Of a DNA stretch of 64,000 nt, positions 24,175 to 51,435 are shown in pieces (position 1 is the stretch's first letter; each line of letters opens with the position of its first letter). The translations under genes were made by a program, and so were the position numbers. The stretch comes from Engraulis encrasicolus (taxonomy: Eukaryota > Chordata > Actinopteri > Clupeiformes > Engraulidae). A model generated the notes under the pieces. It saw nothing but the letters and a program-made list of their open reading frames with translations. It did no database searches and was not told the origin of the DNA. Where the stretch lies: positions 16,677,889-16,741,888 of the forward strand of contig NC_085865.1 in NCBI RefSeq assembly GCF_034702125.1, in the 5' to 3' direction.

Positions 24175-25364
24175 TTCTGAATTATTTATTCACTGTAGGA
24201 GAGTGGGTCAAATCAGAACTCTTGCTCCATCACATCTGCAGAGTGTGTGCTTTAAAAAAATATATGGGTTTGATATCTTAATATAAATTATGCACCTATC
24301 CTGGGCCTAGAACTCATAACTGTCCAATGGATTTGAATATAAATCAATGCATTTCCATGAAATGCAAAGAATATTACGGAACTAAGGTGTAGAGCAATGT
24401 AGGAAATTTGGAGATGTCCCAAGGCACACTGTCAAATCTAGAGTAAAGGCCTATAAACCTTTTGAAAATACATGAATATGGATTAAATCAGTTATTCTCA
24501 AACTGCCGGCCCACAGGTGGACCATGAAGTGGGCCTTGCAACCATTTTATAAAAAGCAAAATAATATTTATGTTTGGTCTTCTTTATTGGGTCAGCGGTG
24601 GGCCCTGTCCATGTCAAAATTTCAACTGGGCCCCAAGTTGAAATAGATTGGGTACTCCTAGATTAGATAGCGTAACAGATTAAAGACTCCAAACCCATTG
24701 CTGTGCATTGAAATGAATAGCTAGATGTAAAACAGGTTTCAATGGACCTTATATCACATCTAGTATATGGACCTTTCCCTATACTCTTCTATATCTTCAG
24801 TATATAGACCTAGGTTTCCTAATGATACCAGGATTACAATTGCACACTCCAAAGTATTTGAATGTGAAGGACAATGCATGGAGATCCTGCACAAGAGTTC
24901 AGTTTGTCAGAAACTAATGTCTTTTTACACATACAGTACAACCTGTCTAGCAACTAGAATGTATCGACTTTCCTGAGGCAACCTGCGGAAGCAGTTTAGG
25001 TAGGCTATAGCAATCCTAGTGTTTTTTTGGGGTCCTGGCCCATGTACTAAAAGGTGAATGATTCAATGGGACACCTGATCTGAACGCAAACAAAAATGAG
25101 TTTGAGACAAAACTGGCCATGAGCCTGGAGTATGCCCACTTTCGCCCAAACATTTCACAATGAGCAAAAATAAATAAATAAATCATTTAAGGACATTAGG
25201 AAATTAACACTCATTTAGGCGACCAGAATTGTTGAACTAATCGATTTGTTGGTTACCATTATGAAAATCTCAACTTGTGTGCACCAAATAGTCCCTCAAC
25301 AAGCTCATGAATTGGTTTCAGACAAGACAGAATAAACCAGAAACAGCAATGAAATGGGAGACAT

Positions 25365-25370
25365 TTTATT
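25365..25370 (-). terminator. Poly(A) signal AATAAA of gene A1
   Basis: Minus-strand AATAAA in the context 'cttcaataaaatg'. The same context appears downstream of all five array genes, about 0.6-1.1 kb past the stop codon. This marks a long 3' UTR that may contain an intron (a GTATGT donor-like site lies shortly after each stop). Confidence 0.7.
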
Positions 25371-25599
25371 GAAGCTTCAATGACAAAAGACCTGGAGAGA
25401 CAAAAAAGTAAAGTCACGTTAGAATTTGACAAGCCAACCTCCAGCTACACAATCTACACGGAGTAAAAACCACTTAACGGCAATTCCAAAGACACAATTC
25501 ATTTTGATCTACACAAAATGAGGCAAGCATCTTGAAGCCTCAGGGTTGTACAGCACACATCCATGTGTAGTACTAGAGAAACTGGAAAGGTCATAGTGA

Positions 25600-26009
25600 C
25601 TCCAACTCATGGAGGTAGTATAAGAACTGGAGAGAGTGAATAAGTCCCGCCTCCAGTCATTTCAATGGGAAATGCTACACCAGTGAATTCAGCCAAAACT
25701 GAACGAATTTTTCAGCTTCAAAGATGGAGTCGTTTCCGCCGACAGTTAACTCCAATTAGCCAATTACGTGCCACATTAATGATTGACCAGAAAGATATGG
25801 AAGACGGGCATTGGATGCATGGACGTGCCCAACCACACACCTGTATACAGTATGTGTGCCCAACACCAAGCTTGCGCACCCACCAATCACATCCACCCTC
25901 TTTGAGCGAAGTGACGTCGGAAATGAGCAAATTTGTGAGAATTGCGACGAGGAAGTGCTTCGCTAATTGGCGAAGCTAATCAGCCAAATCCTGACCCCAT
26001 GCTCCAACT
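25600..26009. mobile_element. MITE inserted in the 3' region of gene A1
   Basis: The element at 25608-26001 is bracketed by perfect CTCCAACT copies at 25600-25607 and 26002-26009. Genes A2 (near 40965), B1 (near 31685) and B2 (near 46230) keep the uninterrupted site reading 'gtgactccagctggtct'. The insertion therefore happened in A1 after the duplications. Its ends are CATGGAGG and CCCCATG. An open frame of 104 codons inside (25665-25979) has no coding signature. Confidence 0.85.
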
Positions 26010-26432
26010 GGTCTGGAGATAAATATAGAAAATGAAGATCAATAAAATCCCATGTTAAGGTGGAGGACAAAGACATCATTCAGTGTGAGGAATCAACACT
26101 TGAATTCCTTTCTTTTATTGCATGGAATTTTAATCTTTGAGGTCTTCAGATTCTACATCTAGGTAGAGGATCTGCGGAAGACCTCAATGATCAAAATTGA
26201 AATTTGCCATGGAAGGAAACAAAATTATAAAACATAGAAACAAGTGTAGGCCGTGACCCAGTCTGTGCTGAACTGCTTGAAGCCATCTAGTAGGCAATGT
26301 AAAATGGTGTTTCAACATACCCAATTCAACACCTCCATCGAGTCCAGCTCTGGATGGCAGCAGCCTTCAGCTGAGAGAGTAGAGCTGCCGCTTCTGCTGG
26401 TGTTTAGACTTATGCCCTGCTGTAAGGGGCTG

Positions 26433-27020
26433 TTACTTGGTCTGCTGCTTTGGTGTAGCCTGTGTTGTCAAGGATTGCTGTGTCTGTTGCACAGATTTGG
26501 ACGCAGCCTGAGGCTTCTGGTCATTATACATCTGTGCCACAGGTGTTTTGGATTTGCCATGTTGAGGAATACTACCACCATCCTGTTGCTTGGTCTGTTG
26601 CTTTGGTGGGGCTGTAGCCTGGGTTGTCAAGGATGGCTGTGTCTGTTGCACAGATTTGGACGCAGCCTGAGGCTTCTGGTCATCATACATCTGTGCCACA
26701 GGTGTTTTGGATTTGCCATGTTGAGGAATACTACCACCATCCTGTTGCTTGGTCTGCTGCTTTGGTGAGGCTGTAGCCTGTGTTGTCAAGGATGGCTGTG
26801 TCTGTTGCACAGATTTGGACGCAGCCTGAGGCTTCTGGTCGTCATACATCTGTGCCACAGGTGTTTTGGATTTGCCATGTTGAGGAATACTACCACCATC
26901 CTGTTGCTTGGTCTGCTGCTTTGGTGAGGCTGTAGCCTGTGTTGTCAAGGATGGCTGTGTCTGTTGCACAGATTTGGACGCAGCCTGAGGCTTCTGGTCA
27001 TCGTAGAGCTGTCCCACTGG
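26433..27020 (-). repeat. Coding minisatellite, 159-bp units, in gene A1
   Basis: Four in-frame units (the last truncated) are nearly identical to each other at the DNA level, differing by a few single bases and one 6-bp gap. Such homogeneity suggests recent unequal exchange or gene conversion within the exon. Confidence 0.85.
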
Positions 27021-27499
27021 TCGTTTGGATTTGTCTGGTGACTGCGATTCATCTTTGATTTCCTGCTGTTCATCTTTGATGACCTGTGTTTGCTGCTGTT
27101 GAGGGATAACCCCCTTGATGCCAGAGTTGCTGCTGGTGGATGGCTTGTTGTGAATGCTGTTGCTGACACTTTGGGTCTTCTGGCCTTGGTCAGGACCTCT
27201 ACCAGGATCATGGAGCCCTAAAGACGCAGAAACTTTATTTAGGACCACAATAAACAGGTATCCATAATAAGGGAATTACCATCATCTCAAAAAGGTAAAT
27301 CTATTGAGCAAGGGTACTTCACTTACCATTTGCAAGCCCAAGGTCATAGGAGGCAATGGCTACAAATAGCAGCATTAGGCTACAAACACAAAATGAGAAG
27401 TGTCAGACATGATGGCACTGCTAATAGCTTAATTTATTTAGAAATACTGGATGGTTAAAAAACATACCTGTACCGCTTTCCATTTGCACCCCACATCAT
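26433..27499 (-). CDS. Array gene A1: secreted Gln/Lys-rich repeat protein, C-terminal tail lost
   Basis: Not recognised as any known family. Exons: 27499-27468 (32 nt), 27379-27327 (53 nt), 27217-26433 (785 nt), giving 289 residues. Splice signals are GTATGT/TTTGTAG and GTAAGT/CTTTAG. The leader MMWGANGKRYSLMLLFVAIA spans the first intron. The rest contains no cysteine: a linker rich in Gln and charged residues (IKDEQQEIKDES) and then four repeats of up to 53 residues with the core PVAQMYDDQKPQAASKSVQQ and a second half ending GGSIPQHGKSKT. A TAA at 26435-26433 replaces a CAA present in the sister genes. It removes 23 residues, including the conserved basic KRQLYSLS-type ending, which is still readable downstream to 26374. 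The protein may still be functional. Expression is plausible from the conserved promoter and poly(A) signal. Confidence 0.75.
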
Positions 27500-27570
27500 C
27501 CAGCTGTTATTAGCTGCTACCACCACACAGTTGACACAAAGTCACATTGCAGCAGTGGCATCAAGGCAGC

Positions 27571-27603
27571 TTTTAAGGCAGATTAGATTTTGTTTCAACC
27601 AAT
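27571..27603 (-). promoter_or_regulatory. Core promoter of gene A1 (TTAAAA box and CCAAT-box pair)
   Basis: On the minus strand a CCAAT box in inverted form (ATTGG, 27603-27599) is followed about 25 bp later by TTAAAA (27576-27571). These lie about 75-105 bp upstream of the start codon. The same pair, with almost identical surrounding sequence, precedes all five array genes. A TTAATCC/TAATTA-rich stretch lies just upstream. Confidence 0.5.
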
Positions 27604-27724
27604 CACACACTGATGAGGGAAACAAGATCAGCTGAAGAGGTAATTAGTGTAATAATCAGCAGGTGTGCTACATATTGAATTGTACCGTTTGGAGTTTGGT
27701 TGCCATCACTCAAAACCCAACCGA

Positions 27725-28290
27725 ATCTCACTCATTTCGTGAAGTATTCACGAAAAAAAAAGGATTAATTTTCGTGGTGCATTCACGTTATTGGCCGTTT
27801 TTCGTGGTAGGGCAACGAAACGCTGCCTATTCACTTGAATTGCCCGACTGTTGCCTAGCGACCCACTAGTTTGATGCCCTTTCGGTAGCCTACCGTCACA
27901 TGGTAATCAAACATTTCAAACAAGCAATTTAGGGTTAGGTTTAGGGTCAAGGTTAGGGTTAAGGTTAGGGTTAGGGTTAGGGTTAGGGTTAGGTTTAGGG
28001 TTAAGTAGGGTTAAGGTTAGGGTTAGGTTTAGGTTTAGGTTTAGGGGACATAAGGCGTGAGTACCGAAAGGGCGTCGAATTAGTGAGTCCCGAGTGTATC
28101 AGCAGTGTTCTGTCAGCACCCCCTCCCCGCCCCTGCAGACGCTTGGATAACCATAGCAGCAGTGGGGCAATTCAAGTGAATAGGCAGCGTTTCGTTGCCC
28201 TACCACGAAAAACGGGCAATAACGTGAATGCACCACGAAAATTAATCTATTTTTTTCGTGAAGACTTTACGAAAGGCATGAGATAGGGCT
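27725..28290. mobile_element. Foldback element with internal TTAGGG-type repeats (copy 1)
   Basis: The left arm (about 27728-27896, 'tttcgtgaagtattcacgaa' ... 'gatgccctttcggta') and right arm (about 28050-28284) are inverted copies. Between them 27928-28046 is a run of TTAGGG, TTAGGT and TTAAGG units. The arms share 'ggcaacgaaacgctgcctat'. It lies directly upstream of A1, and its duplicate lies upstream of A2. Confidence 0.75.
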
Positions 28291-28825
28291 CCAAAACCAC
28301 ATAAAACAATGCAGGTAACCCACCTGTACGAAGGTGTCCCACCCCATATGTTGAAAATATAAATAAAAGAATTTTGAATAATTTTTGCTCAATTTGTACG
28401 CAAAAGCTTTTACGACTGCTCAAACCCAATTGATATGCCCTCAGAATCTGCTTCCGCTAGTCGGTTGCTGATGACATTTGCGGTTCACATCGGGTAGCTA
28501 CTCGTGGGATTGCAACAGAGTGAACGCCTACTTGATCCCACAGAAGGCAAAGCAGAACGTGTGTCCTGAAATTCTGTGCATGTGCAGTTCATCACATCAG
28601 TAGGAAAACAATCATTTGCAGCGTTGCTTTCATATATATGACCAATAACTTACTGGATAGCTATTATAATCTTGTTTTCATTATGATTCCAACCATATGG
28701 GTTGTGGATCCCTCAGTTGTCCCATATCTGTTTAATCATTCATTTTCAGGTGCCCATGGTTTTACTAATCTGAAATTGCAACCCTGAGGCGTAGCCAAGA
28801 TGGCCGCCATGTGACATGTCTTATT

Positions 28826-29122
28826 GAGTGCATCTTAATATGGGACCTTGCCTCCTCCACTTGCCTCCTCCACTCGCTTCTCGTCATGATGACATCACTG
28901 ACAACAGCATTATATTTCAATATCTTGCAAAAGCTCCATTGTAGAGTCTTTTTTTCTCGTTTGCAATTGGGATGGTGAATGAAAAACAGTCCCTCAAAAG
29001 TTGTTGTGGCTAGGCTGACAGCTGGGAAACTTTATCGTTTTCTCCACGGAGGAGGGGCCAGGAGGCGGGGCGAGGAGACAAGCGCAAATGGAGGAGGCAA
29101 GGTGGCATATTAAGATGCACTC
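28826..29122. mobile_element. MITE present only in block 1
   Basis: Inverted ends GAGTGCATCTTAATATGGGA and (right) 'gcatattaagatgcactc'. The corresponding place in block 2 (about 43979-43985, 'gtgttattttaaggg') is an empty site. A related copy in opposite orientation lies at 52049-52330, and a diverged relative at about 29610-29840 (block 2: 44480-44670). Confidence 0.8.
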
Positions 29123-29139
29123 ATTGTAAGGGCCCTTGT

Positions 29140-31233: not shown

Positions 31234-31456
31234 AGGACATCACCAAGGGTTCAGAATGGAAAGGAGTTGAATGGGGGAAATTAACTAACTTAGGGGACCA
31301 GAATTGCCTCTTTGCTTACCATATTGAAAATCTTTGCTTATGCACCACAAATAGTTCCTTGAGGAACTGATGAATTGGTTTCAGACTATCAAGACCCTTC
31401 ATGCTTCAGGAACAGACAAATAAACCAGAAACAGCAATGAAATGGGATTTTGAAAT

Positions 31457-31462
31457 TTTATT
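31457..31462 (-). terminator. Poly(A) signal AATAAA of gene B1
   Basis: Minus-strand AATAAA in the same sequence context as in A1, 0.64 kb past the B1 stop codon. Confidence 0.65.
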
Positions 31463-32098
31463 GAAACTTCAAAAGACACGACCTGGAGAGACAAATAAAA
31501 AGTAAAGTCACATTAGTATTTCACGTGTCAACCTTTAGAAACCATAAATCAGACAGCGGTTCCAAATACACACACACACACAATTCAGTCTTTGATCTCC
31601 AAAATGAACCAAGCATCTTGAAGCCTCAGGGTTGTAAAGCACACATCCATGTGTGGCACTAGAGGAACTGGAAAGGTCATAGTGACTCCAGCTGGTCTGA
31701 ACAGAATAGACTGGTTTTAAGTTAGGATTCATAAGGCATGGAGACAAGTGTAGAAAAGGAAGATCAATAAAATCCCACATTAAGGTGCAGGCAAAGGCAA
31801 AGCTTAGTGTGAGGAGTCACACACAATTGGAATTCCTTTTCGCGTTTCATTGTATGGCATGTTGATCTTTGAGGTCTTTAGATTCTCTACATCTAGGTAG
31901 AGGATATGAGGAAGACCTCAATGACCAAAACTTAATTCTGCAGTGCCATGGAAGAAAACAAAAAAAGGATTCAAGTGGCTTCTCACTCTAAAACATGTAA
32001 ACAAGTGTAGGCCTTGACCCAACCTGTGCTGAACTACCTACGAAATGCAAAATTGTTTCAACATACCCAACGAGTCCAGCTCTGGGTGGCAGCAACCT

Positions 32099-33098
32099 TC
32101 AGCTGAGAGAAGAGAGCTGCCGCTTCTGCTGGTGTTTAGACGTATGCCCTGCTGTGAGGGGCTGTTGCTCGGTCTGCTGTGCTGGTGTAGCCGGTGTAGA
32201 CAAGGATTGCTGTGTCTGTTGCACATGTTTGGAGATATGGGGCTTCTGGTCATCATAGATTTGTGTCACAGGATGTTTGGATTTGCCATGTTGAGGAATA
32301 CTACCCTCGTCTTGTTGCTTGGTCTGCTGCTTTGGCGGGGCTGTAGCCTGTGTTGTCAAGGATGGCTGTTGCATAGATTTGGACGCAGCCTGAGGCTTCT
32401 GGTCATCATACATCTGTGCCACAGGGGTTTTGGATTTGCCATGTTGAGGAATACTACCCCCATCTGGTTGCTTGGTCTGCTGCTTTGGTGGGGCTGTAGC
32501 CTGCGTTGTCAAGGATGGCTTTGGCTGTTGCACATGTTTGGAAGTAGCTTGAGGGTTCTGGTCATCATTGTAGATCTGGATCACAGGTCGTTTGGATTCA
32601 TCTCTGATAACCTGCTGCTCATCTTTGATAACCTGCTGTTGATCTTCAGATAAAATGTGCATTGGGTTGCTGCTGCTGGATGGCTTGGAATGAATGTTGT
32701 TGCTGACACTTGTGGATGGTTGGAAGTCAATGTCACTTGCAGATGCCACTTCAATGCTGTTGCTGACACTTGTAGAGGGTTTGAAGCCAATCACTCCACC
32801 CCTGACACCTATGGGTGGATTTAGTTTTAGTTGGGAACACAATACCTACACAGATATCCATAATAAGGGTGTTACTACCATCTCAAAAAGGTAAATCTAT
32901 TGAGCAAGGTTACTTCACCTACCATTTGCAAGCCCTAGGTCATAGGAGGCAATGGCTACAAAAAGCACAGCCAGGCTACAAACAAAAAGTGAAAAATGTC
33001 AAGACATGATATCACTTTTAAATAGCCTAATTTATTTAGAAATACCAGATGGTTAAAAAAACATACCTTAACTGTTTTCCATTTGCACCCCACATCAT
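32099..33098 (-). CDS. Array gene B1: secreted Gln/Lys-rich repeat protein (intact)
   Basis: Unrecognised family, intact. Exons: 33098-33067, 32975-32923, 32808-32099, giving 264 residues. The leader is MMWGANGKQLSLAVLFVAIA. Next comes an N-terminal region with two related motifs (GFKPSTSVSNSI and DFQPSTSVSNNI), a Gln/Glu-rich linker (QQQVIKDEQQVIRDESKRPV) and three repeat units of the PV-Q-Y-D type. The last unit runs into the conserved ending EQQPLTAGH...QQKRQLSSLS. There is no cysteine or tryptophan after the leader. The exon 3 acceptor (CCCATAG) is weakly pyrimidine-rich but is the one that keeps the frame. The final Lys-Arg could be a convertase site; that is inference. Confidence 0.78.
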
Positions 33099-33169
33099 CC
33101 AGTTGTTAATAGCTGCTGCCACCACACAATCGACACAATGTCACATTGCAGCAGTTGCATCAAGGCAGC

Positions 33170-33202: not shown

Positions 33203-33424
33203 CACACAATGATTAGGGAATTAAGGTCAGCTGAAGAGGTAATTAGTGTAATAATCAGGTGTGCTGTATTGAATTGTATCCTTTGGAGTCTGACTGTCCA
33301 TTACTCAAAACCACATTCAAAACAATGCAGATGGCACCTGTGTTAATGTGATACATATTATGTCACACATATTATGTTGAAAATATAAATAAAAGAATTT
33401 TGATTCATTTGTGCACATACCTGC

Positions 33425-33852: not shown

Positions 33853-34235
33853 GTATATCCTTGCCTGGCTCTTGCCCGACCTGTAGTTCCGCACAGCTTT
33901 GTGAGCTCCACTACTAGGTCTGGGAGCATGTAGCAGGATTCCATTTCTACAGTCAAACAAAAAAATCGCAGCATTTATTGCTTCAATATCAACAAATTCT
34001 TTCAAAACCATTTTCTGTTGATCTCTAAAGCGTCAATATGGTCTATAATATGACCTGTGACTCCTCAATGTGAGCTGCCAGTGATATTGAAGTGATAAAT
34101 GCTCGGCATTATTTTTTGAGTCCAGAAATTGAATCCTGCCACATGCTCCCAGACCGATGTGTGTGTTTGGAGTGCCACCAGGGGGCTCCAGAGCACACAC
34201 ACGGAGGTCTGGTAGGAACCAGGCTAGGTATATCC
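33853..34235. mobile_element. MITE nested in the palindrome's left arm
   Basis: The element at 33861-34227 begins TTGCCTGGCTCTTGCCCGAC and ends GGTAGGAACCAGGCTAG, flanked by GTATATCC at 33853-33860 and 34228-34235. A second internal inversion pairs 'ggtctgggagcatgt' with 'acatgctcccagacc'. The right palindrome arm has no such insertion. Confidence 0.8.
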
Positions 34236-35099
34236 CCCCACTACTAGAAAAAGCCTGATAGCAGTCACGGGGTGGTAACGAAACCCCTTTTTTTCGGCTC
34301 TTGAAGTGACTACCCCCTCTATTAAATTCCATTTTTGAATTCGGATGCATGTCTAGTTCAGGCTTATTTCGTGAGGTATTGCCAATATTCTATACCATGG
34401 TGCCTGGTATTACCGGAAAGGGGACCTTTCAGGGTTTCATTTAAGCCCATTGGTGAATCTGTCTGATATACACAGAGGTCACAGCACTTCATTAAATCAG
34501 ACATAGCTCACATTTTCCAACAACTCTTGGCTAAACTGTCTGCTTTCGTTTATCTCTGTGGCGTGAAAGAACACCAAGGACATAAAATTGGACAACCTCA
34601 ATACTCTTTGGAGTCTGCTGATTCAGAAAATGTATAATATGCCCATACAATTATTTTGTTTGCGCTTGAGAGAGCGTTAAATTTGACTTGTGCAACCAGC
34701 AAAAGTCTTCAAAATAATAGCCAATACATGTAGGTCATCTGTTGGAAATATTGGGCCTTTTTCCTTCCAAAGTGTCTGCTTGGCATGACTGCTTGGCATT
34801 AGGCCTTCATTTAAGATCATTACTAAATCTCTCTGACATACTCAGAGGTCACAGCACTTCATTAAACCAGAAATAATAATAACAAATGTCGCCTAAACTG
34901 TATGCTTTCTTTTGTCCCTACGTACTGTAAACCATGGGAAAACATCAAGGACACAAACCCCAACCATTTCAATACTCAAGGCACTCTTCTAATTCAGACA
35001 ATGTATGATATACCCATACAATGTATTGTGAGAGCCTTAAAAAAGGCCATAATGATCATTAATATGACATATTTTAAGTCCAATTCTGTCCTACCTCTT

Positions 35100-35480
35100 T
35101 ATAGACGTAAGGAAATGTAAGGAGACATAAGACATAAGGAGATAAAAGAGATGAGCAGGGGCATGGGGAGGCACTGTATGTAGATGTAGAGTTGGGGGGG
35201 GGCAGGGGGAGAAGTAGGGGTGAGGTGAGTGGGGGCAATTGAGGGGGGGGGCACTGTTGGGTGGGGGGCAAGGCCAGGGTAATGGAGGTAGGTGAGTGTA
35301 GGGCACAGGTGAGTGGGGCGTACTATGAAGTGGGGGGGCAAGAGGGGTAGTGGGGGTAGGCGAGGGGGGAGGGCACCGTTGGGGGGGGGGGGGGCTTAAA
35401 GGAAAGTGAGGGGGGTTGGGGAGATAAGACACTGTAGGGTGGGGAGGGAAGTGGGGTGAGATACTGTAGAGCAGTTGGGG
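35100..35480. repeat. G-rich low-complexity tract
   Basis: Strongly strand-asymmetric: many runs of four to ten G on the plus strand separated by short spacers such as 'aggtgagtg'. The density of G-runs makes quadruplex formation plausible. The proline-rich open frames on the opposite strand are a by-product of the composition. Confidence 0.85.
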
Positions 35481-36518: not shown

Positions 36519-36643
<125 letters not shown>

Positions 36644-37170
36644 TTTCTGCCTTTTCTGTATGGCAAAAATGTAGCCTATGAAATTATCATTTGGGGAAGG
36701 GCTACCATATTGAATTTTGGGCAATAGTTTTCAATTTCTTTCAATAATCTGTGAAATGTCTGGCAGGACAACAGGTCTATTATTAAGCAGTTCACTATAT
36801 GTGCAATTTGATCATTTACTGACAACAGTACCATTTCAAAGCAGATTTATACATTCGTATACACATACAGACATACTGTATGTATATATATACACTATGT
36901 ATACATACATATATTCATTCATTTCTCTTTTTATCCAACATTTGCATGCATGTCTGTAAGGAGATAGTACAGAATTGGTCAGAAAATAGGTCATTAGGGC
37001 CTTGAGGATCATTAGGGCCTTTTAAAGGCTCCCGCAAATATTGTATTATACATTATACATTTTCTGAATCAACAGCATGCCTAGATTTTTAAAATCATTG
37101 GGTTTTGTGTCCCTGATGTTTTCCCATGGTATATGGACAAGATGAATCATACAGTAGAGACGGAATTTGT

Positions 37171-37688
37171 GAGAAATTACTGGTTTAAAGGATAACGCCA
37201 GCCAATTTCAACATGCATATAATGTTCACACTACCCTGGACTTGTCAGTACCTGAGATTTTTTTTTTCTTCAGCCTTTTCCAAGATCCTGGTCATTGTAA
37301 TGGGGGCAGGTGTTACCTTTTGGGAAAATATTTGGAGTAGGCCCATGTTAACATTTTTTTTAAATGTAAGCAAAATCTGCCCCTATTAGAATAGCAGCAT
37401 GCAGCATCTCCGGGTACTGATAAGTCAAGGGTAGTGTGAGCAATACAACAGCATATTGAAATTGGCAGGAGTGATCATTTAACTATTTTTTTTGGGGGGG
37501 CTTTTCAAGCCTTTGTTTTTTTGTTTATATGAGACAGGACAGTGAAGGAGGTGACAGGAAGCGAGTTGGGAGGGAGAGATGGGGGAGGGTCGGCAAAGGG
37601 CACGGTTCGTAATAGAACCCAGGTCGGCCGCGTAGTAGACCAGCGCCCTACCATTAGGCCATGATAGGGCCGAGAAATTACTGGTTTA
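37171..37688 (-). mobile_element. SINE with 17-bp target duplication, itself split by a TTAA element
   Basis: GAGAAATTACTGGTTTA occurs at 37171-37187 and 37672-37688. The inserted DNA consists of a TTAA-bounded MITE (37189-37478, TTAA at 37185-37188 and 37479-37482, ends AGGATAACGCCAGCC...GGCAGGAGTGATCAT) and a minus-strand SINE (37484-37671, tRNA head with 'ggtcggccgcgtagtagacc'). Order of events: the SINE landed first, then the TTAA element hit the left duplication. Confidence 0.75.
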
Positions 37689-39297
37689 ATGACCTCTGTG
37701 AATGTCAGACAGTCAGTAATGGGCCTAAAATATGAAAGGCCGAAGGGTCCCCTTTCCAGTGATACCCAGCACAAACATTGGCAGGAAAAAAGGACTGATG
37801 TTTCCAGCTAATGACCTGCTATATTGGCTACTATTTTGAAGACTATTGGTGGTTACACAAGTCAAATTTTAGGCCCTCAGAAACATATACAAAATAATTG
37901 TATGGGCATATTATACATTTTCTGAATGAACAGACTCCACCGAGTATTGAGGTTGTCTAATTTTGTGTCCTTGGCGTTCTTTCATGCCACAGAGATAAAC
38001 GAAATCAAACAGTTTAGCCAACATTTGTGAGAAAATGTGACCTATGTCTGGTTTAATGAAGTGCTGTGACCTCTGTGTGTGTCAGAAAGATTCAGCAATG
38101 GACTTAAATGAAAGAATTAAAGGTCCCCTTTCCAGTAATACCAAGCGCTATTGTATAGAATATTGACAATACCCCAAGCTGTCCTGGACCTTCTTTCGAG
38201 CAACTGCACTTAAAGATGTTCTAGCCATCATTGTATTTGTCTGGTAAAAGGCCTCAGGTGCAGACGTGTGTGAACTGAGAGTGTGCGGAAACCAGGCAAC
38301 CATAGACAGTTCAGATGAAGGGGATGACATGGAAGATGAGTACTGACGAAGATATAATATAAATCTACATGAAACTATTCTTTCATTAAACATATTCCCT
38401 TTGCAAGATGTTTCTTTATTGACTTGCAACCCCTTGTATAGGGTCTCAGTCTACTTGTTTATGAAATAGCCTATATAAAATGTTGTATATGAACATTTAT
38501 CTAAATTCTGTTAATGAGATACCATATCTGAGTGGTTACCCAATGCCCTATCATTCCAGGGCCTACCGTTTAGATTGTATTTCTTCACATACACTACAAT
38601 AATTGAACACTGGGTCCTATTTTGAAGACATTTTTGCTGGTTGCACAAGTAACATTTCAGGCTCTCACAAACATATACTAAATGATTGTATGGGCATATT
38701 ATAAATTTTCGGAATCAGCAGAGTGCCCTGAGTATTGAGGTTGTTAACTTTGGTGTCCTTGGTGTTCTTCCATGCCACAGATGTAAACGAAAGTGCACAG
38801 TTTAGGCACAATTTGTGTGAAAATGGGAGCTATTTCTGGTTTAATGACGTGCTGTGGCTTCTGTGCATGTCTGACAGATTATGGGCTCATTAATGGGCTT
38901 AAATGAAAGCCTGAAAGGTCCCCTTTCCAGTGATAACAAGCACAATGGTATAAAACATTGGCAATACCCTCAACATAAGCCATAACTACACAGTCGATAT
39001 ATAAAAAAAAAAAACAGTATTTATTATAGGGGGGGGGGGGGTAGTAACTTCAAGAGCTGAAAAGTGATTTCGCTACCACCCCATGACCGCCATCAAGCTT
39101 TCTACTAGTGGGGGGGATATACCTTGCCAAAAAACATTGCTAGCATTCCTCCCCCCAGATGGCACCGGTCGACCCCTGCGGCTCATAGCCTATTGGGAAG
39201 TTTTGCCACCTCAGGTGATACCAATGTCCTTTTTTAGTCCTGGCCCATGTACTAAAGGTGAGTGATTCAGTAGGACACCTGATCTGAACACAAACAT

Positions 39298-41383: not shown

Positions 41384-42202
41384 TCAGCTGAGAGAGTAGA
41401 GCTGCCGCTTCTGCTGCCGTTTAGACTTGTGCCCTGCTGTAAGGGGATGTTGCTTGGTCTGCTGCTTTGGTGGGGCTGTAGACTGTGTTGTCAAGGATTG
41501 CTGTGTCTGTTGCACAGATTTGGACGCAGCCTGAGGCTTCTGGTCATCATACATCTGTGCCACAGGCATTTTGGATTTGGCATGTTGAGGAATACTACCC
41601 CCATCTTGTTGCTTGGTCTGCTGCTTTGGTGGGTCTGTAGCCTGTGTTGTCAAGGATGGCTGTGTCTGTTGCACAGATTTGGACGTAGCCTGAGGCTTCT
41701 GGTCATCATACATCTGTGCCACAGGCATTTTGGATTTGGCATGTTGAGGAATACTACCCCCATCTTGTTGCTTGGTCTGCTGCTTTGGTGGGTCTGTAGC
41801 CTGTGTTGTCAAGGATGGCTGTGTCTGTTGCACAGATTTGGACGCAGCCTGAGGCTTCTGGTCATCATACATCTGTGCCACAGGCATTTTGGATTTGGCA
41901 TGTTGAGGAATACTACCCCCATCTTGTTGCTTGGTCTGCTGCTTTGGTGAGGCTGTAGCCTGGGTTGTCAAGGATGGCTGTGTCTGTTGCACAGATTTGG
42001 ACGCAGCCTGAGGCTTCTGGTCATCATACATCTGTGCCACAGGTGTTTTGGATTTTCCATGTTGAGGAATACTACCCCCATCCTGTTCCTTGGTCTGCTG
42101 CTTTGGTGGGGCTGTAGCCGGTGTCGTCAAGGATGGCTGAGTCTATTGCACAGATTTGGACGCAGCCTGAGGCTTCTGGTCATCATAGAGCTGTCCCACA
42201 GG
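41384..42202 (-). repeat. Coding minisatellite, 159-bp units, in gene A2
   Basis: Five in-frame units. Three of the inner units share private changes (GKSKM-type 'AKSKM' and 'TDPPKQ') not seen in A1. They therefore multiplied within A2 after the duplication. Confidence 0.85.
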
Positions 42203-42656
42203 TTGTTTGGATTTGTCTGGTGACTGCGATTCATCTTTGATTTCCTGCTGTTCATCTTTGATGACCTGTGTTTGCTGCTGTTGAGGGATAACCCCCTTGA
42301 TGCCAGAGTTGCTGCTGGTGGATGGCTTGTTGTGAATGCTGTTGCTGACACTTTGGGTCTTCTGGCCTTGGTCAGGACCTCTACCAGGATCATGAAGCCC
42401 TAAAGACGCAGAAACTTTATTTAGGACCACAATAAACAGGTATCCATAAGGATAAATCTATTGAGCAAGGGTACTTCACTTACCATTTGCAAGCCCAAGG
42501 TCATAGGAGGCAATGGCTACAAATAGCAGCGTTAGGCTACAAACACAAAATGAGAAGTGTCAGACATGATGGCACTGCTAATAGCTTAATTTATTTAGAA
42601 ATACTGGATGGTTAAAAAACATACCTGTACCGCTTTCCATTTGCACCCCACATCAT
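41384..42656 (-). pseudogene. Array gene A2: repeat-protein gene with premature stop
   Basis: Exons 42656-42625, 42536-42484 and 42399-41384, with the same splice sites as A1. A TAG at 42145-42143 replaces the CAG that begins the QTQPS part of the first repeat unit in A1. As read, the product is 113 residues, comprising leader, linker and part of unit 1. Downstream the frame is undamaged for about 250 codons: four more units and the complete C-terminal ending with KRQLYSLS and a TGA at 41384. This is a single lesion in an otherwise clean frame. It is either a very young pseudogene, an allele, or a sequencing error. It has one more repeat unit than A1 (five against four). Confidence 0.75.
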
Positions 42657-42727
42657 CCAGTTGTTATTAGCTGCTACCACCACACAGTTGACACAAAGTC
42701 ACATTGCAGCAGTGGCATCAAGGCAGC

Positions 42728-42760
42728 TTTTAAGGCAGATTAGATTTTGTTTCAACCAAT
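42728..42760 (-). promoter_or_regulatory. Core promoter of gene A2
   Basis: Inverted CCAAT box (42760-42756) and TTAAAA (42733-42728), spaced as in the sister genes. Confidence 0.5.
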
Positions 42761-42879
42761 CACACACTGATTAGGGAAACAAGATCAGCTGAAGAGGTAA
42801 TTAGTGTAATAATCAGCAGGTGTGCTACGTATTGAATTGTACCGTTTGGAGTCTGGTTGTCCATCACTCAAAACCCAAC

Positions 42880-43447
42880 CGAATCTCACTCATTTCGTGA
42901 AGTATTCACGAAAAAAATGGATTAATTTTCGTGGTGCATTCACGTTATTGCCCGTTTTTCGTGGTAGGGCAACGAAACGCTGCCTATTCACTTGAATTGC
43001 CCGACTGTTGCCTAGCGACCCACTAGTTTGATGCCCTTTCGGTAGCCTACCGTCACATGGTAATCAAACATTTCAAACAAGCAATTTAGGGTTAGGTTTA
43101 GGGTCAAGGTTAGGGTTAAGGTTAGGGTTAAGGTTAGGGTTAGGGTTAGGTTTAGGGTTAAGTAGGGTTAAGGTTAGGTTTAGGTTTAGGTTTAGGTTTA
43201 GGGGACATAAGGCGTGAGTACCGAAAGGGCGTCGAATTAGTGAGTCCCGAGTGTATCAGCAGTGTTCTGTCAGCACCCCCTCCCCGCCCCTGCAGACGCT
43301 TGGATAACCATAGCAGCAGTGGGGCAATTCAAGTGAATAGGCAGCGTTTCGTTGCCCTACCACGAAAAACGGGCAATAACGTGAATGCACCACGAAAATT
43401 AATCTATTTTTTTCGTGAAGACTTTACGAAAGGCGTGAGATAGGGCT
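42880..43447. mobile_element. Foldback element with TTAGGG-type repeats (copy 2)
   Basis: Duplicate of 27725-28290. The inverted arms again enclose a TTAGGG/TTAGGT/TTAAGG run (43087-43202). The run differs from copy 1 by small changes in unit number and order. Confidence 0.75.
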
Positions 43448-43996
43448 CCAAAACCACATAAAACAATGCAGGTAACCCACCTGTACGAAGATGTCCCACC
43501 CTATATGTTGAAAATATAAATAAAAGAATTTTGAATAATTTTTGCTCAATTTGTACGCAAAAGCTTTTACGACTGCTCAAACCCAATTGATATGCCCTCA
43601 GAATCTGCTTCCGCTAGTTGGTTGCTGATGACATTTGCGGTTCACATCGGGTAGCTACTCGTGGGATTGCAACAGAGTGAACGCCTACTTGATCCCACAG
43701 AAGGCAAAGCAGAACGTGTGTCCTGAAATTCTGTGCATGTGCAGTTCATCACATCAGTAGGAAAACAATCATTTGCAGCGTTGCTTTCATATATATGACC
43801 AATAACTTACTGGATAGCTATTATAATCTTGTTTTCATTATGATTCCAACCATATGGGTTGTGGATCCCTCAGTTGTCCCATATCTGTTTAATCATTCAT
43901 TTTCAGGTGCCCATGGTTTTACTAATCTGAAATTGCAACCCTGAGGCGTAGCCAAGATGGCCGCCATGTGACATGTGTTATTTTAAGGGCCCTTGT

Positions 43997-44186
43997 CCAA
44001 ACCTAGGACAGTGCACTTCCAAGTGTATCAGCCTAATTAGTCACACCCAGTGATTGGATACTCTTTGTTAGTCACACCCAGTGATTGGATATTCCGTAGA
44101 GTTCACCAAAGACTATCCAATCACTGGGCGTGACTAATTAGGCTGATACACTTGGAAGTGCACTGTCCTAGGATTTGAGACTTTGG
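43997..44186. mobile_element. Palindromic MITE (copy in block 2)
   Basis: Duplicate of 29140-29329. Here the arms match each other slightly better ('cacttccaagtgtatcagcc' against 'ggctgatacacttggaagtg'). Confidence 0.75.
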
Positions 44187-45497
44187 TTCAAAAATAGTCC
44201 ATCAGAGCAAGATATCGCAAAACACGCCCACCCAATGCAAAAGAGTGTACTCAAGCTGGGTCTGCTAAGGGGGCGTTGTCCCCTCCTTCGTCTTTTATTT
44301 TTGTGGTGTTTGCAGAAGAAGTGCGCTACCACCATCTACAGCGCTAAGGGGACTCAATTCATTCTCAACCTCAGGACTCCGAAGGTCTCCTAACCGAAGG
44401 TCTCCTAAAGTGGATACCGGAAAATAATTAAAATGACGCATCTCTGTCTAGAATATCTCTGCTTTGGTTACCCGTCAAGCAGACCTACAAAGGTTGAATT
44501 CCAATATGCGGACTCCTGTCCTTCATTACTCACTTGCCTCCTTGTGGCCTCGTGATGACGTCACCGATAAAGGAATTGCATTTTAATATCTTGCAAAATT
44601 TCCATTCTAATATAATTTTCTCATTTGCAAACAGGATAGTGAATGAAGAATTGTCCTCCAAAAGTTGTGGCTAGTTTTGGGAATAATTTTGCTATTAGCT
44701 GCAGGGCAATGGAACTCAAGAGTTGTGACAACTGGGGTACAGAAAGTCGGTTGGTGATATGATTTACGTAGATCCAAATAATTCTAGGCACAGGGTCTCT
44801 TTTCGCTATAGACTAACACAGAACCTCCACACAAGCAAAGATGACTGCACTCTTGACAATCACTTCCTGGAATCATTTTACAAAACAAAATTGCCATTAG
44901 AAAATCTCACTTCATGTACTGAAGTAAACGTGATCCAAGTTTGTATCAACTGCTAGCACATTTTAAGATATTTTAGCAGGCATCTCCAGCTCATGCCTAC
45001 AATCACTTTAATAGACTAATAGGCAAGATGTGTATGGGCTACAGTTTAATACAGCCTGCATCGATGAACACCTGCATCATACATCTAAATTGTAGTGCAC
45101 AAGCCCATGTCATCTACTACTCGTCTAAAGTTCATCATTTTTCCACAATTTGGTGATACCAATGTGTGGGGTATTTTTTGGTTCTGGCCCACTGACTAAG
45201 GAAACAGTCAGACGATTTAACCTAATGTATAGGCAATAGGCTTTCTAAAGGTCCATATACTCTGGATGTGAGGTTTTGTTTAATGCATTGAGACATGCCC
45301 AAACTCCCGCTACAATCTAACCTGATATTAAATTGCTGAAAAAGTGTACAACTTCATAAATTTTGTCCTATATAACTCAAAGTAAATTATCCATTAAAAC
45401 TCATTTTAACATAAACAAGGTTTAGGACACAAAACTGGGCATCAGTCTGGGGTGTGCACACAATCATAATTTCAAAAAGGGAGAAAAAAAAATGCCA

Positions 45498-45797
45498 TTA
45501 ACCCATTTTAGTCTGATGACTCTTATATGTTTAACCTTTGGTGCTCCGAGACACATATAAGCTGAATTCTGGCTCTTGAGATTTTAGCTTTATTTTAAAA
45601 AAAAAAAAGGATGTTACAACTGAATGAACACTTTCTAATGCAAGATGAGGGTCTTGGGGTTTAAATGCAATTTCATGTTTTTACGTGCATCAGAGGCTAA
45701 GATATTCAGGTTTATAGGCAGAGGGCAACTTTCCCAACAAGGGCTTAGGCATTCAGCAGGCGTTTTTTTGCAGGTGCCTTAGGAATCAATGGGTTAA
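45498..45797. mobile_element. TTAA-flanked CCCATT...AATGGG element (block 2)
   Basis: Duplicate of the element at 30934-31233, with TTAA at both borders. Confidence 0.65.
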
Positions 45798-46020
45798 AGG
45801 ACATCACCAAGGGTTCAGAATGGTAAGGAGTTGAATGGGGGAAATTAACTAACTTAGGGGACCAGAATTGGCTCTTTGCTTACCATATTGAAAATCTTTG
45901 CTTATGCACCACAAATAGTTCCTTGAGAAACTGATGAATTGGTTTTAGACCATCAAGACCCTTCATGCTTCAAGAACAGACAAATAAACCAGAAACAGCA
46001 ATGACATGGGATTTTGAAAT

Positions 46021-46026
46021 TTTATT
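46021..46026 (-). terminator. Poly(A) signal AATAAA of gene B2
   Basis: Minus-strand AATAAA about 0.65 kb past the B2 stop codon, in a slightly diverged but recognisable context. Confidence 0.6.
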
Positions 46027-46667
46027 GAAAATTCAAGACACGACCTGTAGAGACAAATAAAAAGTAAAGTCAAGTTAGTATTTCACATGTCAACCTCTAG
46101 AAACCATAAATCAGACAGCGGTTCCAAATTCAGTCTTTGATTTACAAAATGAGCCAAGCATCTTGAAGCCTCAGGGTTGTAAAGCACACATCCATGTGTG
46201 GCACTAGAGGAACTGGAAAGGTCATAGTGACTCCAGCTGGTCTAAACAGAATAGACTGGTTTTAAGTTAGGATTCATAAGGCATGGAGACAAGTGTAGAA
46301 AAGGAAGATCAACAAAATCCCACATTAAGGTGCAGGACAAAGGCAAAGCTTAGTGTGAGGAGTCACACACAATTGAAATTCCTTTTTGCGTTTCATTGCA
46401 TGGCATGTTGATCTTTGAGGTCTTTAGATTCTCTACATCTAGGTAGAGGATCTGAGGAAGACCTCAATGACCAAAACTTAATTCTGCAGTGCCATGGAAG
46501 AAAACAAAAAAAAGGATTCAAGTGGCTTCTCACTCTAAAACATGTAAACAAGTGTAGGCCTTGACCCAGCCTGTGCTGAACTACCTGAAACTGTGCTGAA
46601 CTGCCTACGAAATGCAAAATTGTGTTTCAACATACCCAACGAGTACAGCTCTGGGTGGCAGCAGCCT

Positions 46668-47551
46668 TCAGCTGAGAGAAGAGAGCTGCCGCTTCTGCTG
46701 GTGTTTAGACTTATGCCCTGCTGTAAGGGGCTGTTGCTCGGTCTGCTGCTCTGGTGTAGCCTGTGTTGTCAAGGATTGCTGTGTCTGTTGCACAGATTTG
46801 GACATATGGGGCTTCTGGTCATCATAGATTTGTTCCACAGGATGTTTGGATTTGCCATGTTGAGGAATACTACCCTCGTCTTGTTGCTTGGTCTGCTGCT
46901 TTGGTGGGGTTGTAGCCTGTGTTGTCAAGGATGGCTTTGGCTGTTGCACATGTTTGGAAGTAGTTTGAGGGTTCTGGTCATTATTGTAGACCTTGATCAC
47001 AGGTCGTTTGGATTCATCTCTGATAACCTGCTGCTCATCTTTGATAACCTGCTGTTGATCTTCAGATAAAATGTGCATTTGCTGTTGCTGTTGAGGGATA
47101 ACCCCATTGATGCCAGGGTTGCTGCTGCTGGATGGCTTGGAATGAATGTTGTTGCTGACACTTGTGGATGGTTGGAAGTCAATGTCACTTGCCGATGCCA
47201 CTTCAATGCTGTTGCTGACACTTGTAGAGGGTTTGAAGCCAATCACTCCACCCCTGACACCTATGGGTGGATTTAGTTTTAGTTGGGAACACAATACCTA
47301 CACAGATATCCATAATAAGGGTGTTACTACCATCTCAAAAAGGTAAATCTATTGAGCAAGGTTACTTCACCTACCATTTGCAAGCCCTAGGTCATAGGAG
47401 GCAATGGCTACAAAAAGCACAGCCAGGCTACAAACAAAAAGTGAAAAATGTCAAGACATGATATCACTTTCAAATAGCCTAATTTATTTAGAAATACCAG
47501 ATGGTTAAAAAAACCATACCTTAACTGTTTCCCATTTGCGCCCCACATCAT
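46668..47551 (-). CDS. Array gene B2: secreted Gln/Lys-rich repeat protein (intact)
   Basis: Unrecognised family, intact. Exons: 47551-47520, 47427-47375, 47260-46668, giving 225 residues. The leader is as in B1. The linker contains an extra segment (GINGVIPQQQQQ) that B1 lacks but A1 and A2 share in related form, so B1 has an internal deletion there. It has two repeat units against three in B1, then the conserved ending EQQPLTAGHK...KRQLSSLS. The first unit begins PVIKVYNNDQN, diverged from B1 (PVIQIYNDDQN). Confidence 0.78.
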
Positions 47552-47622
47552 CCAGTTGTTAATAGCTGCTGCCACCACACAGTCGACACAATGTCACATT
47601 GCAGCAGTTGCCTCAAGGCAGC

Positions 47623-47655
47623 TTTTAAGGCAGATTAGATTTTGTTTCAACCAAT
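47623..47655 (-). promoter_or_regulatory. Core promoter of gene B2
   Basis: Inverted CCAAT box (47655-47651) and TTAAAA (47628-47623), spaced as in the sister genes. Confidence 0.5.
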
Positions 47656-48227
47656 CACACAATGATTAGGGAATTAAGGTCAGCTGAAGAGGTAATTAGT
47701 GTAATAATCAGGTGTGCTGTATTGAATTGTATCCTTTGGAGTCTGGCTGTCCATCACTCAAAACCACATTCAAAACAATGCAGATGGCACCTGTGTTAAT
47801 GTGTTACATATTATGTCACACATATTATGTTGAAAATATAAATAAAAGAATTTTGATTCATTTGTGCACATACCTGATTAAAGGTGCACTATGCAGGAAA
47901 TGGTCAAAAAAGGCACTGCAACTATGCTGCTCATTGAAACTGGGTTGCCTATTGCCAAATGGAGCATGGAGAAGATACCCCTTTTCATGTAGCCTATGAA
48001 AAGTGCAATTTTCCCAATCATATTGAATACTTTGAATTTGATGGTGGTGGTAAGTATTCATGAAAAATGTAAGTGAATGGGTGGCATGAATTCTGGAAAT
48101 AAACAACTAAAAATATATAAACTCTGTTCCAATTTCTACAGTGTATGCTTGCATACCAAAGTGAACTACTATTGGCCGAATACCCTCTGCTATGATATGA
48201 GTTAGCCTTCCCGTCAAGGAAAGCTAC

Positions 48228-49388
48228 CAAGTCAATAGGTTCATGATGAAGCAGTGATGCTTTTGCTATGCAGTGCGCATGCGCACTGTCAGTTTGATGC
48301 ATTCTGGTTGAAACTTTCTATATTTTCTAAAGGTGTATAATGTGAGTGAAGACATCTCTGAACTTCCTCTAAATACCTGTACGTACTTTAGTTCTGTTAT
48401 GTACTTTGCATAACTTTGAAATGCATTGATTTTCAAAGGACGGCCATGAGTTTTGGGTGTAAAATAACTGTAATGTATATTAAGCTATCAAATCAATGTG
48501 TTCTTAAGGTCTATATACTATATAGATGCTATATAATGTGCAGTGAGACATCTCCCAACTTCCTACATTAATCTACACCTTAGTTATGTATTGCACTTTG
48601 CATTACAAAATGCATTAATTTCCATTCAAATCCATTGTACAGTTATGGGTTTTGGGCCTAAAATAGCTGCACAATTTATATTAAGACATCTAACCCATAT
48701 ATTTTCTGAAAGCACATACACTCCTCATATAGGAAGAGTTGGAATTTGACCCAAACTCCTACATGCTTCTGCTTCAATCTAACCCTATATTAAAGGCAGC
48801 AGAGAACACCATTGGCTGCCCTCTGCCTTCTCTGGAGGGCCTTTACAGTACCCGCTGTCTAAAAAAAGGGCAATTATATCCTCAGAGACATGTCACATCC
48901 AGACCACAACCTGTCCATCTGGTAGCAGATGCAGATATATAAAAACAGACCAAAAAAACCTCTTTCTACCCAGCGGCCATTACAGCACTTAATTATGCTA
49001 CCAAAGCATAGTTTATATACATACTTATTTTTGTCATTGCTTCAACAAGGAATGCTCAATTTCATTGTGCTTATCACAACGACAAATAAAAGTTATTCGA
49101 TATTATATCGCTGAAATCGTGCACGACTGATACATTTTGGCCTATACAATTCATAGGAAAAGAATCCATTAAAACTGTACATTTATCAAATCCAATGGTG
49201 CCTACTTGCGATAGGCGACCAGAATGGCCTCTATGTTGTTTACCATATTGAAAATCTTTTCTTTTGCGCACCACAAATAGTCCCACTACCTTGACAAACT
49301 GATGAATTGGTTTTAGACCATCAAGAGCCTTCATACTTAAGAAAGGGTTAAATAAACCAGAAACATCAATGAAATGGGATTTTGACAT
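48228..49388. other. Spacer between block 2 and gene C
   Basis: AT-rich intergenic DNA. No gene was recognised. Two similar stretches around 48330-48440 and 48520-48650 ('gtgagacatctc', 'ttagttatgtattgcacttt'-type phrases) suggest an old local duplication. Homology to the 3' flank of the array genes resumes at about 49200. Confidence 0.5.
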
Positions 49389-49394
49389 TTTATT
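49389..49394 (-). terminator. Poly(A) signal AATAAA of gene C
   Basis: Minus-strand AATAAA in the conserved context. It lies 1.1 kb beyond the stop codon because two transposons have lengthened this 3' region. Confidence 0.6.
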
Positions 49395-49581
49395 GAAGCT
49401 TTCAAGGACACGGGACCTGGAGAGACAAAAAAAAGTGTCATGGTATCAGCCTATTTGACATACCAACCTCTAGCTAAATAATCTAGACCCAGTAAAAAAA
49501 ACATTAATCATATAGCAATTCCAAACACACACACACAATTCATTCTTTGATCTACACAAAATGAAGCAAGCATCCTGAAAC

Positions 49582-49742
49582 CTCAGGGTCAGGGGCGGAG
49601 CTATAGGGGGACAAGCAGGGCCCAGGGTCCTCCTGTATTGGCGTTGGGGGCCTTATTGTGACCATGGCAGGCTGTATGGAGGGGCCCTATAGGTGGTTTG
49701 TCCTGGGGCCCTGTGTGCAACTGTTCTACCACTGCTCAGGGT
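49582..49742. mobile_element. Short hAT-like MITE in the gene C 3' region
   Basis: The element at 49590-49734 begins CAGGGGCGGAGC and ends TTCTACCACTG. It is flanked by CTCAGGGT at 49582-49589 and 49735-49742. The sister genes have the uninterrupted 'gcctcagggttgt' here. Confidence 0.8.
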
Positions 49743-49772
49743 CGTACAGCAGACATCAGTGTTATACTACAG

Positions 49773-50101
49773 CAGGGATGAGGAACTTCTCATTCGAAGG
49801 GCCACTTCAAATTTTATAAAGTCCTCCAAGGGCCGTACTATGGACACAAACCAGGATTTCCCCAAGCACTTTAGGCCTATATTGAAGGCTGTCACCTTTA
49901 CAACAGACCCCACCCTCACTAGGTCCCCTGAAAATATAGATTACCTTAAACTGTATTGGCAATGTAATTTCTAAGATTCCTTCACAAAACGTCATATTTC
50001 AATCATGTGAAACTGCATAACTTTAAAATTATGTCGGGGGCCGGATAAGACTGCCTCGAAGGCCATAAGCGGCCCTCGAGACATAGGTTCCCCACCCCTG
50101 T
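49773..50101. mobile_element. Second hAT-like MITE in the gene C 3' region
   Basis: The ends CAGGGATGAGGAAC and GTTCCCCACCCCTG are inverted repeats. The interior has 'gggccg' motifs common in such elements. No clean 8-bp duplication was found, so the flanks have probably mutated. Confidence 0.7.
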
Positions 50102-50509
50102 GTAGAGAGAAGGGAAAGGTCATGGTGACATAGTGCACATCCCATGTTAAGGTGCAGGACAAAGACAACGTTTTTAGTGTGAGGAGCACACCCTTTTTTT
50201 GTTTTATTGCATGGCATTTTAATCTATCTTTGAGGTCTTCAGACTCTCTACATCTTGGCTGAGGAAGAGGATCTGAGGAAGACCTAAATGATCAAAACTT
50301 CTTAAAACTTCTAAAAAAAAAAAAAGTAATTTAAGTGTGCAGACGTCTCACTCTAAAACATGGAAACAAGTGTAGGCCTTGACCCAGTCTGTGCTGAACT
50401 GCCTGAAGCCATCTTCTAGTAGGCAATGTAAAATTGTGTTGTGTTGTAAAATTGTGTTTCAACATACCCATTTTAACACCTCCATCGAGTCCAGCTCTGG
50501 ATGGCAGAT

Positions 50510-51368
50510 TCAGCTGAGAGAGTAGAGCTGCCGCTTCTGCTGGTGTTTAGACTTATGCCCTGCTGTAAGGGGCTGTTGCTCTGTCTGCTGCTCTGGTGTA
50601 GACTGTCTTGTCAAGGATGGCTGTGTCTGTTGCACATGTTTGGACATATGGGGCTTCTGGTCATCATAGATTTGTGCCACAGGGGTTTTGGATTTGCCAT
50701 GTTGAGGAATACTACCCCCATCTTGTTGCTTGGTCTGCTGCTTTGGTGGGGCTGTAGCCTGTGTTGTCAAGGATGGCTTTGGCTGTTGCACATGTTTGGA
50801 AGTAACGTGAGGGTTCTGGTCATCATTGTAGATCTGGATCACAGGTCGTTTGGATTTGTCTTTGACTAGCTGCAGTTCATCTTTGACTAGTTGCAGTTCA
50901 TCTTTGAGAATCTGCAGTTCATCTTTGAGAACCTGCTGTTCACCTTTGAGAACCTGCTGTTCACCTTTGAGAACCTGCTGTTCATCTTTGATAGCCTGCT
51001 GTTCATCATCAACAAGGGTAATGTGTGTTTGAAGCTGTTGAGGGATAAGCCCCTTGATGTCAGGGTCACTGCTGCTGGATGGCTTGTAATTAATACTGTT
51101 GCTGACACTTGTGGACGGATTGAAATCAATGTCACTCGTGGATGCCGCATCAACGCTGTTGTTTACATTTGTGGATGGTTTGAAGTCAATGCCACCATTC
51201 GCAAGCCTAAAGTCATAGGAGACAATGGCTACAAAAAGCACAGCCAGGCTACAAACAAAAAGTGACAAATGTCAAGACAAGATATCACTTTTAAATAGCC
51301 TAATTTATTTAGAAATACTGGATGAAAAAAACATACCTTAACTGTTTTCCATTTGCACCACACATCAT
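50510..51368 (-). CDS. Array gene C: two-exon variant with heptad repeats (intact)
   Basis: Unrecognised family, intact. Exons: 51368-51337 and 51248-50510, giving 256 residues. Exon 1 (MMCGANGKQL) splices at GTATGT to a TTTGTAG acceptor as in the sisters. The second intron is absent: the LANG codons continue directly into GGIDFKPSTNVN. Order: leader, three related FKPST/FNPST-type motifs, a linker, seven heptads of the KDEQQVL/KDELQLV type, two repeat units (PVIQIYNDDQN..., PVAQIYDDQK...), then the ending EQQPLTAGHK...KRQLYSLS. The heptads (Leu/Val/Ile at regular positions) suggest a short coiled coil. As the outermost and most distinct gene it may represent the older form, or a lone intron loss. 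Confidence 0.78.
50856..51015 (-). repeat. 21-bp coding tandem repeat (heptads) in gene C
   Basis: Seven in-frame units of 21 bp. Neighbouring units are identical or differ by one to three bases. B1, B2, A1 and A2 have only about two such units in the matching place, so C expanded them. Confidence 0.85.
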
Positions 51369-51435
51369 TCAGTTGTTATTAGTTGCTACCACCACACAGT
51401 TGACAGTCACATAGCAGCAGTTTCATCAATGCAGC

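Follow-up and report, generated by a model that had tools for sequence, protein, structure and literature searches.

Background

The mammalian semen-coagulum genes known as REST genes (semenogelins, Svs, Svp) have a signal-peptide exon, a major coding exon rich in Lys/Gln repeats and a 3' non-translated exon, and they change rapidly, with stop codons in some copies (PMC7556508). We have analysed a stretch of 64,000 nt of the European anchovy, Engraulis encrasicolus (the window, within which all positions are counted) that carries a real array of five related genes, g1 to g5, of comparable layout. The explanation that we tentatively favour is a young gene family encoding a secreted structural protein, one that would oligomerise by a coiled coil and whose repeats may provide cross-links.

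Gene anatomy and comparison with the REST genes

Inspection of the window found five minus-strand paralogues between 25.3 and 51.4 kb. This agrees with an earlier reading of the same DNA, made from its letters only (the sequence-only reading), and the leader exons, splice sites, main exon, ending and AATAAA of each copy were found in matching places.

25364..27499, minus strand: g1, exons 27499-27468, 27379-27327 and 27217-26367, 3'-untranslated exon from about 25391; broken
31456..33098, minus strand: g2, exons 33098-33067, 32975-32923 and 32808-32099, 3'-untranslated exon from about 31482; intact, 264 residues
40796..42656, minus strand: g3, exons 42656-42625, 42536-42484 and 42399-41384, 3'-untranslated exon from about 40821; broken
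46020..47551, minus strand: g4, exons 47551-47520, 47427-47375 and 47260-46668, 3'-untranslated exon from about 46044; intact, 225 residues
49388..51368, minus strand: g5, exons 51368-51337 and 51248-50510, 3'-untranslated exon from about 49416; intact, 256 residues

In every copy exon 1 contributes 32 coding nt, and there are a large main exon and a separate 3'-untranslated exon with AATAAA. The distance from the ordinary stop to the intron of the 3'-untranslated region (3'-UTR) downstream of it is 32-46 nt in all five. Two exons together encode the leader, and the coding introns are of phase 2 and phase 1. The 53-nt exon 2 is separate in g1 to g4; g5 has lost intron 2, and its exon 2 continues in frame into the main exon, a point that the sequence-only reading had missed. 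The 27-nt ending motif (up to three mismatches) occurs five times in the window, against a mean of 0.00 in 100 shuffles.

Judged by sequence, the general REST layout of signal-peptide, major coding and 3' non-translated exon is present in all five anchovy copies. The likeness extends to the leader exon or exons followed by a single main coding exon whose Gln/Lys-rich tandem repeats change fast, to the separate 3'-untranslated exon with the ordinary stop shortly before the 3'-UTR intron, and to several related genes per locus with varying repeat number and stops in some copies (PMC7556508). Unlike the REST genes, however, the anchovy genes have a leader split over two exons, with exon 2 fused to the main exon in g5, a predicted heptad helix in g5 and a different chromosomal neighbour, TNFRSF11A. 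None of the three protein searches described below matched a mammalian protein. REST genes are homologous in their leader and 3' exons to PI3/WFDC genes; on this point the search with the leader half gave four anchovy proteins only, and Pfam found no WAP domain in g2, g4 or g5. REST proteins are also transglutaminase substrates in seminal fluid, and what the anchovy sequences offer here is the amino-acid composition given below. Because no sequence link was found, we regard the REST likeness as a resemblance and not as membership.

Intact and broken copies

The frames of g2, g4 and g5 are open from leader to ending, so three of the five are intact. In g1 there is an in-frame TAA at 26433-26435, 22 codons ahead of the ordinary stop and 13 codons ahead of KRQLYSLS, and in g3 an in-frame TAG at 42143-42145 (codon 114). 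The sequence-only reading had missed both stops, and although the common ending KRQLYSLS or KRQLSSLS is present in the DNA of all five copies, an uninterrupted frame reaches it in only three. By the usual rule of nonsense-mediated decay, the ordinary stop would be spared, whereas the two early stops, both more than 100 nt upstream of the 3'-UTR intron, would not.

The translation of g2 is identical over all 264 residues to NCBI LOC134455027 (P0001; Engraulis encrasicolus, 57.07-Mb contig), while those of g4 and g5 correspond letter for letter to P0003 and to LOC134455543 isoform X1 (P0005). A fourth intact protein of the g1/g3 type, P0002 (310 residues), sits on a different contig (55.4 Mb), and thus the family is not confined to the proposed RELCH-TNFRSF11A gap. 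Isoform labels X1, X2 or X3 are attached to two of the three window proteins matched and to P0002; such labels at NCBI generally point to transcript evidence.

The label at NCBI is 'uncharacterized' for g2 and g5, but g4 is named 'putative mediator of RNA polymerase II transcription subunit 26 isoform X3'. The sequence-only reading knew of no named family with this repeat, which agrees with the entries for g2 and g5; g4 carries an automatic and probably wrong name. The mark of Mediator subunit 26 is a domain of the MED26/TFIIS-N type, and Pfam found none in g2, g4 or g5, so we rejected the identity. Unlike that subunit, g4 has a leader peptide and matches no Pfam family (0 families up to E = 10), and its paralogues are uncharacterized. 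The name on g4 (46668-47551) is a probable NCBI misannotation, perhaps arising from the Gln-rich tail; Mediator subunit 26 may be Gln-rich too.

Protein composition and predicted structure

Neither Cys nor Trp occurs in the mature part of any of the five copies, as the sequence-only reading had noted. Gln accounts for 16-22% and Lys for 8-11% of the mature parts across all five, and for 16.2-17.8% and 8.1-10.1% respectively in the three intact ones. An AlphaFold2 model was made for g5 only, using an alignment of four sequences (g5 and three relatives). It contains a leader helix at residues 12-27 with low confidence, a helix at residues 82-142 with block values of the predicted local distance difference test score (pLDDT) of 79-95 over residues 91-140, and a tail that from residue 146 falls below a pLDDT of 50. 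The helix consists of 7-residue units in which two of the seven positions are almost always hydrophobic and a third is so about half the time. For g5 the model thus predicts, with confidence, a single heptad helix and, beyond it, a disordered tail made of Gln/Lys-rich repeats of about 53 residues. The proposal of a disordered protein fits the repeat tail but not, at least in g5, the confidently predicted helix.

Growth of the array, repeats and promoter

A self-comparison of the window, in which matches shorter than 120 bases were left out, showed that the block of g1 and g2 matches the block of g3 and g4:

26431-28825 versus 41607-43982: 96.8% identity
29123-29827 versus 43980-44672: 94.1% identity
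30265-32409 versus 44806-46984: 91.7% identity
32313-33773 versus 46732-48227: 93.8% identity

The copies are therefore not five independent repeats of one unit, since these two blocks correspond, and they fall into three subtypes, g1/g3, g2/g4 and g5. Counted by the motif PVx(Q/K)xY, repeats number 4, 3, 5, 2 and 2 in g1, g2, g3, g4 and g5, that is, 2-3 per tail in the intact window copies and 4 (g1) and 5 (g3) in the broken ones. The tandem repeats are placed as follows:

26454..27033, minus strand: 159-bp (53-codon) tandem repeats of g1
32241..32520, minus strand: 153-bp tandem repeats of g2
41448..42215, minus strand: 159-bp (53-codon) tandem repeats of g3
50859..51007, minus strand: 21-bp minisatellite of g5, coding the predicted 7-residue helix units

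Upstream of the ATG, the first 200 bp are 89-92% alike between subtypes and the next 200 bp are 43-69% alike. Within the proximal promoter of each copy we found a site of the following form:

27617..27634, minus strand: CAGCTG-N6-TTTCCC of g1
42774-42791, minus strand: CAGCTG-N6-TTTCCC of g3
51482-51499, minus strand: CAGCTG-N6-TTTCCC of g5
33216-33233, minus strand: CAGCTG-N6-ATTCCC of g2
47669-47686, minus strand: CAGCTG-N6-ATTCCC of g4

Upstream of g1 and of g3, at a distance of a few hundred bases, are elements (27725-28284 and 42883-43441) with inverted ends of about 130 bp (92-95% alike) around telomere-like TTAGGG arrays, which look like a small inverted-repeat mobile element. Between g2 and g3 there are inverted and direct partial repeats, 70-82% alike, at 34222-35106 and 36952-39128, perhaps transposon remnants.

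Relatives and database searches

Searches over 5.8 billion proteins with g2 alone, with a four-sequence profile and with the leader half of g2 gave 5, 5 and 4 matches respectively, all of them from Engraulis encrasicolus or the window itself. The profile search scored the 7991 candidates sharing most words, so that distant Gln-rich relatives could be missed, and the leader-half search had 198 candidates. So far as these searches reach, the family appears to be anchovy-only; which other clupeiform proteomes the database contains was not checked. With relatives only in the anchovy and two of three intact genes uncharacterized, the description of an unnamed, lineage-restricted, secreted Gln/Lys-rich repeat family given by the sequence-only reading is supported.

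Pfam gave no family up to E = 10 for g2 and six matches for g5, all below their cut-offs and Mediator not among them; the match of g5 to NUDE_C (E 1.1e-4, 23.2 bits versus a cut-off of 30.9) was taken as an effect of coiled-coil composition. No transposon domain was found by Pfam in g2, g4 or g5, and there is one extra family copy among the database proteins. Comparison with solved structures, made for g4 only, gave no match up to E = 10, tblastn found no relative in the viral contigs (145 stretches) and bacterial or archaeal genomes (546) that matched a short peptide pattern, and no RNA family reached its gathering threshold in the window. In the literature collection searched, no paper names the three NCBI gene ids looked for. 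The family genes are not mentioned in the portions covered of two anchovy papers (PMC10420382, PMC13403563), and nothing on the family stands in the titles and abstract openings retrieved for teleost RELCH-TNFRSF11A, for seminal plasma or transglutaminase in anchovy, or for orphan genes encoding Gln-rich secreted proteins.

Selection and divergence

The ratio of nonsynonymous to synonymous divergence (dN/dS) was estimated by the Nei-Gojobori method with a codon bootstrap for seven of the ten possible pairs; within the repeats, these values may pair repeat units that do not correspond. The ratio was 0.44 (0.27-0.73) for g2/g5, 0.56 (0.36-0.88) for g4/g5, 0.25 (0.13-0.49) for g1/g3, 0.45 (0.32-0.63) for g1/g2, 0.59 (0.38-0.95) for g3/g4 and 0.73 (0.51-1.06) for g1/g5, and the point values of all ten pairs lie between 0.25 and 0.73. 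Six gene pairs together showed 30 runs of insertion or deletion (indel) in exon 3, of which 21 had a length divisible by three, and in three of these pairs every run did; in the 3'-UTR and its intron of the same pairs, 17 of 82 runs did. The reading frame seems to have been kept.

Weighing the explanations

The secreted structural protein that we favour draws on gene anatomy, on three intact copies with one more elsewhere, on the common proximal promoter and on the Gln/Lys-rich tail. The leader peptide would direct the protein to the secretory pathway, chains would associate through the coiled coil, and the Gln and Lys residues in the tail might serve as sites of cross-linking, either non-covalent or by transglutaminase, building a gel, coat or coagulum; the secreted product would probably be sticky or gel-like. 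With composition and spacing as the sole requirements, the numbers of copies, repeats and heptads could shift fast, and broken copies could be tolerated because the remaining copies would still supply the product.

Several points weigh against this explanation. The cross-linking step is deduced just from amino-acid composition, the putative secretion signal was recognised by visual inspection, and the mean pLDDT of the g5 model is 50.9. Two of the five copies are broken by in-frame stops. For g2/g4 the dN/dS of 0.47 has an interval (0.19-1.35) that includes 1, and dN does not fall below the divergence of the introns (g2 and g5 have a dN of 0.087, while their first introns differ by 9% in one alignment and 4.5% in another), so sequence constraint is loose and weak at best. 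The dS of g2/g5, at 0.198, is above both dN and intron divergence, and ratios below 1 may therefore partly reflect a high dS, for example from misaligned repeat units. Nine of the 30 exon-3 indel runs are out of frame (five in g1/g2, two in g2/g5 and two in g1/g5, in nucleotide alignments).

Alternatively, the array may be a segmental duplication that is decaying or neutral, its open frames being leftovers from which no useful protein is made. The in-frame stops, the level of dN relative to the introns and the intervals of g2/g4 and g1/g5, which include 1, would all agree with this. However, three long frames are intact with full splice sites and a poly(A) signal, a fourth protein stands on another contig, the dN/dS interval lies below 1 in five of the seven pairs (g2/g5, g4/g5, g1/g3, g1/g2 and g3/g4), and exon-3 indel runs are mostly in frame, so that we hold neutral decay to be rather unlikely. 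We also thought of a relative of the Pro/Gln-rich SCPP proteins acting in mineralised tissue, with which the anchovy proteins have in common a leader peptide, Gln- and Pro-rich composition, tandem genes and a predicted disordered tail. Virtually all SCPP introns are of phase 0, but those of the anchovy genes are of phases 2 and 1; the SCPP signal peptide lies in one exon, but the anchovy leader is split over two; and the SxE motif occurs just once in g2, once in g4 and never in g5. We accordingly rejected SCPP membership, and such a relative is highly improbable.

The site common to the five promoters resembles a PTF1 site and may be a lead towards the exocrine pancreas. There PTF1 would switch the five genes on, and the protein would be a gut or pancreatic secretion acting in the gut lumen, with roles such as mucus binding, coating or the handling of food particles. 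The pattern CA[GC]CTG-N3-10-TTCCC has five sites on both strands of the 64 kb, exactly those of the five promoters. It was, however, picked after the promoters had been inspected, and a looser form has 13 matches in the window. Moreover, the centre-to-centre distance of 12 bp is not clearly one helical turn, ATTCCC replaces TTTCCC in two of the five copies, and the copies descend from one ancestor, so that the site counts once. We consider this pancreatic origin, together with the gut-lumen roles, unlikely. A peptide precursor, cut at the conserved KR to free QLYSLS or QLSSLS, is suggested by the QQKRQL(Y/S)SLS kept in the three intact proteins and P0002. But the sole other dibasic site in each intact protein is the SKRPV of the first repeat, so each chain would yield one short product and the repeats would be left unexplained, and we see very little chance of such a precursor.

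Neighbouring genes and other repeats

The sequence-only reading had the array filling the gap between RELCH and TNFRSF11A, which we take to be direct neighbours in human. On the left, two joined exon translations near 14.5 and 12.6 kb had TNFRSF11A structures as their best match (E 2.6e-14, solved-structure comparison), and Pfam on six single open reading frames from that side gave no family at the cut-off. On the right, RELCH was not found by Pfam in 14 minus-strand open reading frames at 52-64 kb, none of which gave a family at its cut-off, a weak test that cannot rule RELCH out. One flank of the proposed interval was thus confirmed and the other was not. A short dispersed repeat is present in at least four copies in both orientations, 73.8-87.6% alike (2014-2199, 10354-10565, 12748-12891 and 59312-59491).

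Meaning for the family

In a small space the locus illustrates how a new family of secreted structural proteins may arise: one promoter and leader serve repeatedly, the lengths of a heptad helix and of a 53-residue repeat shift, and copies survive or perish within one cluster. By analogy with the mammalian semen-coagulum locus, anchovies might have independently evolved a counterpart of their own, with tandem, fast-changing, secreted coiled-coil proteins of Gln/Lys repeats cross-linked outside the cell as a gel or coat, although we give this low odds. If the product is a cross-linked secretion, it would be a striking convergence, in a fish of commercial importance, with the seminal coagulum genes of mammals.

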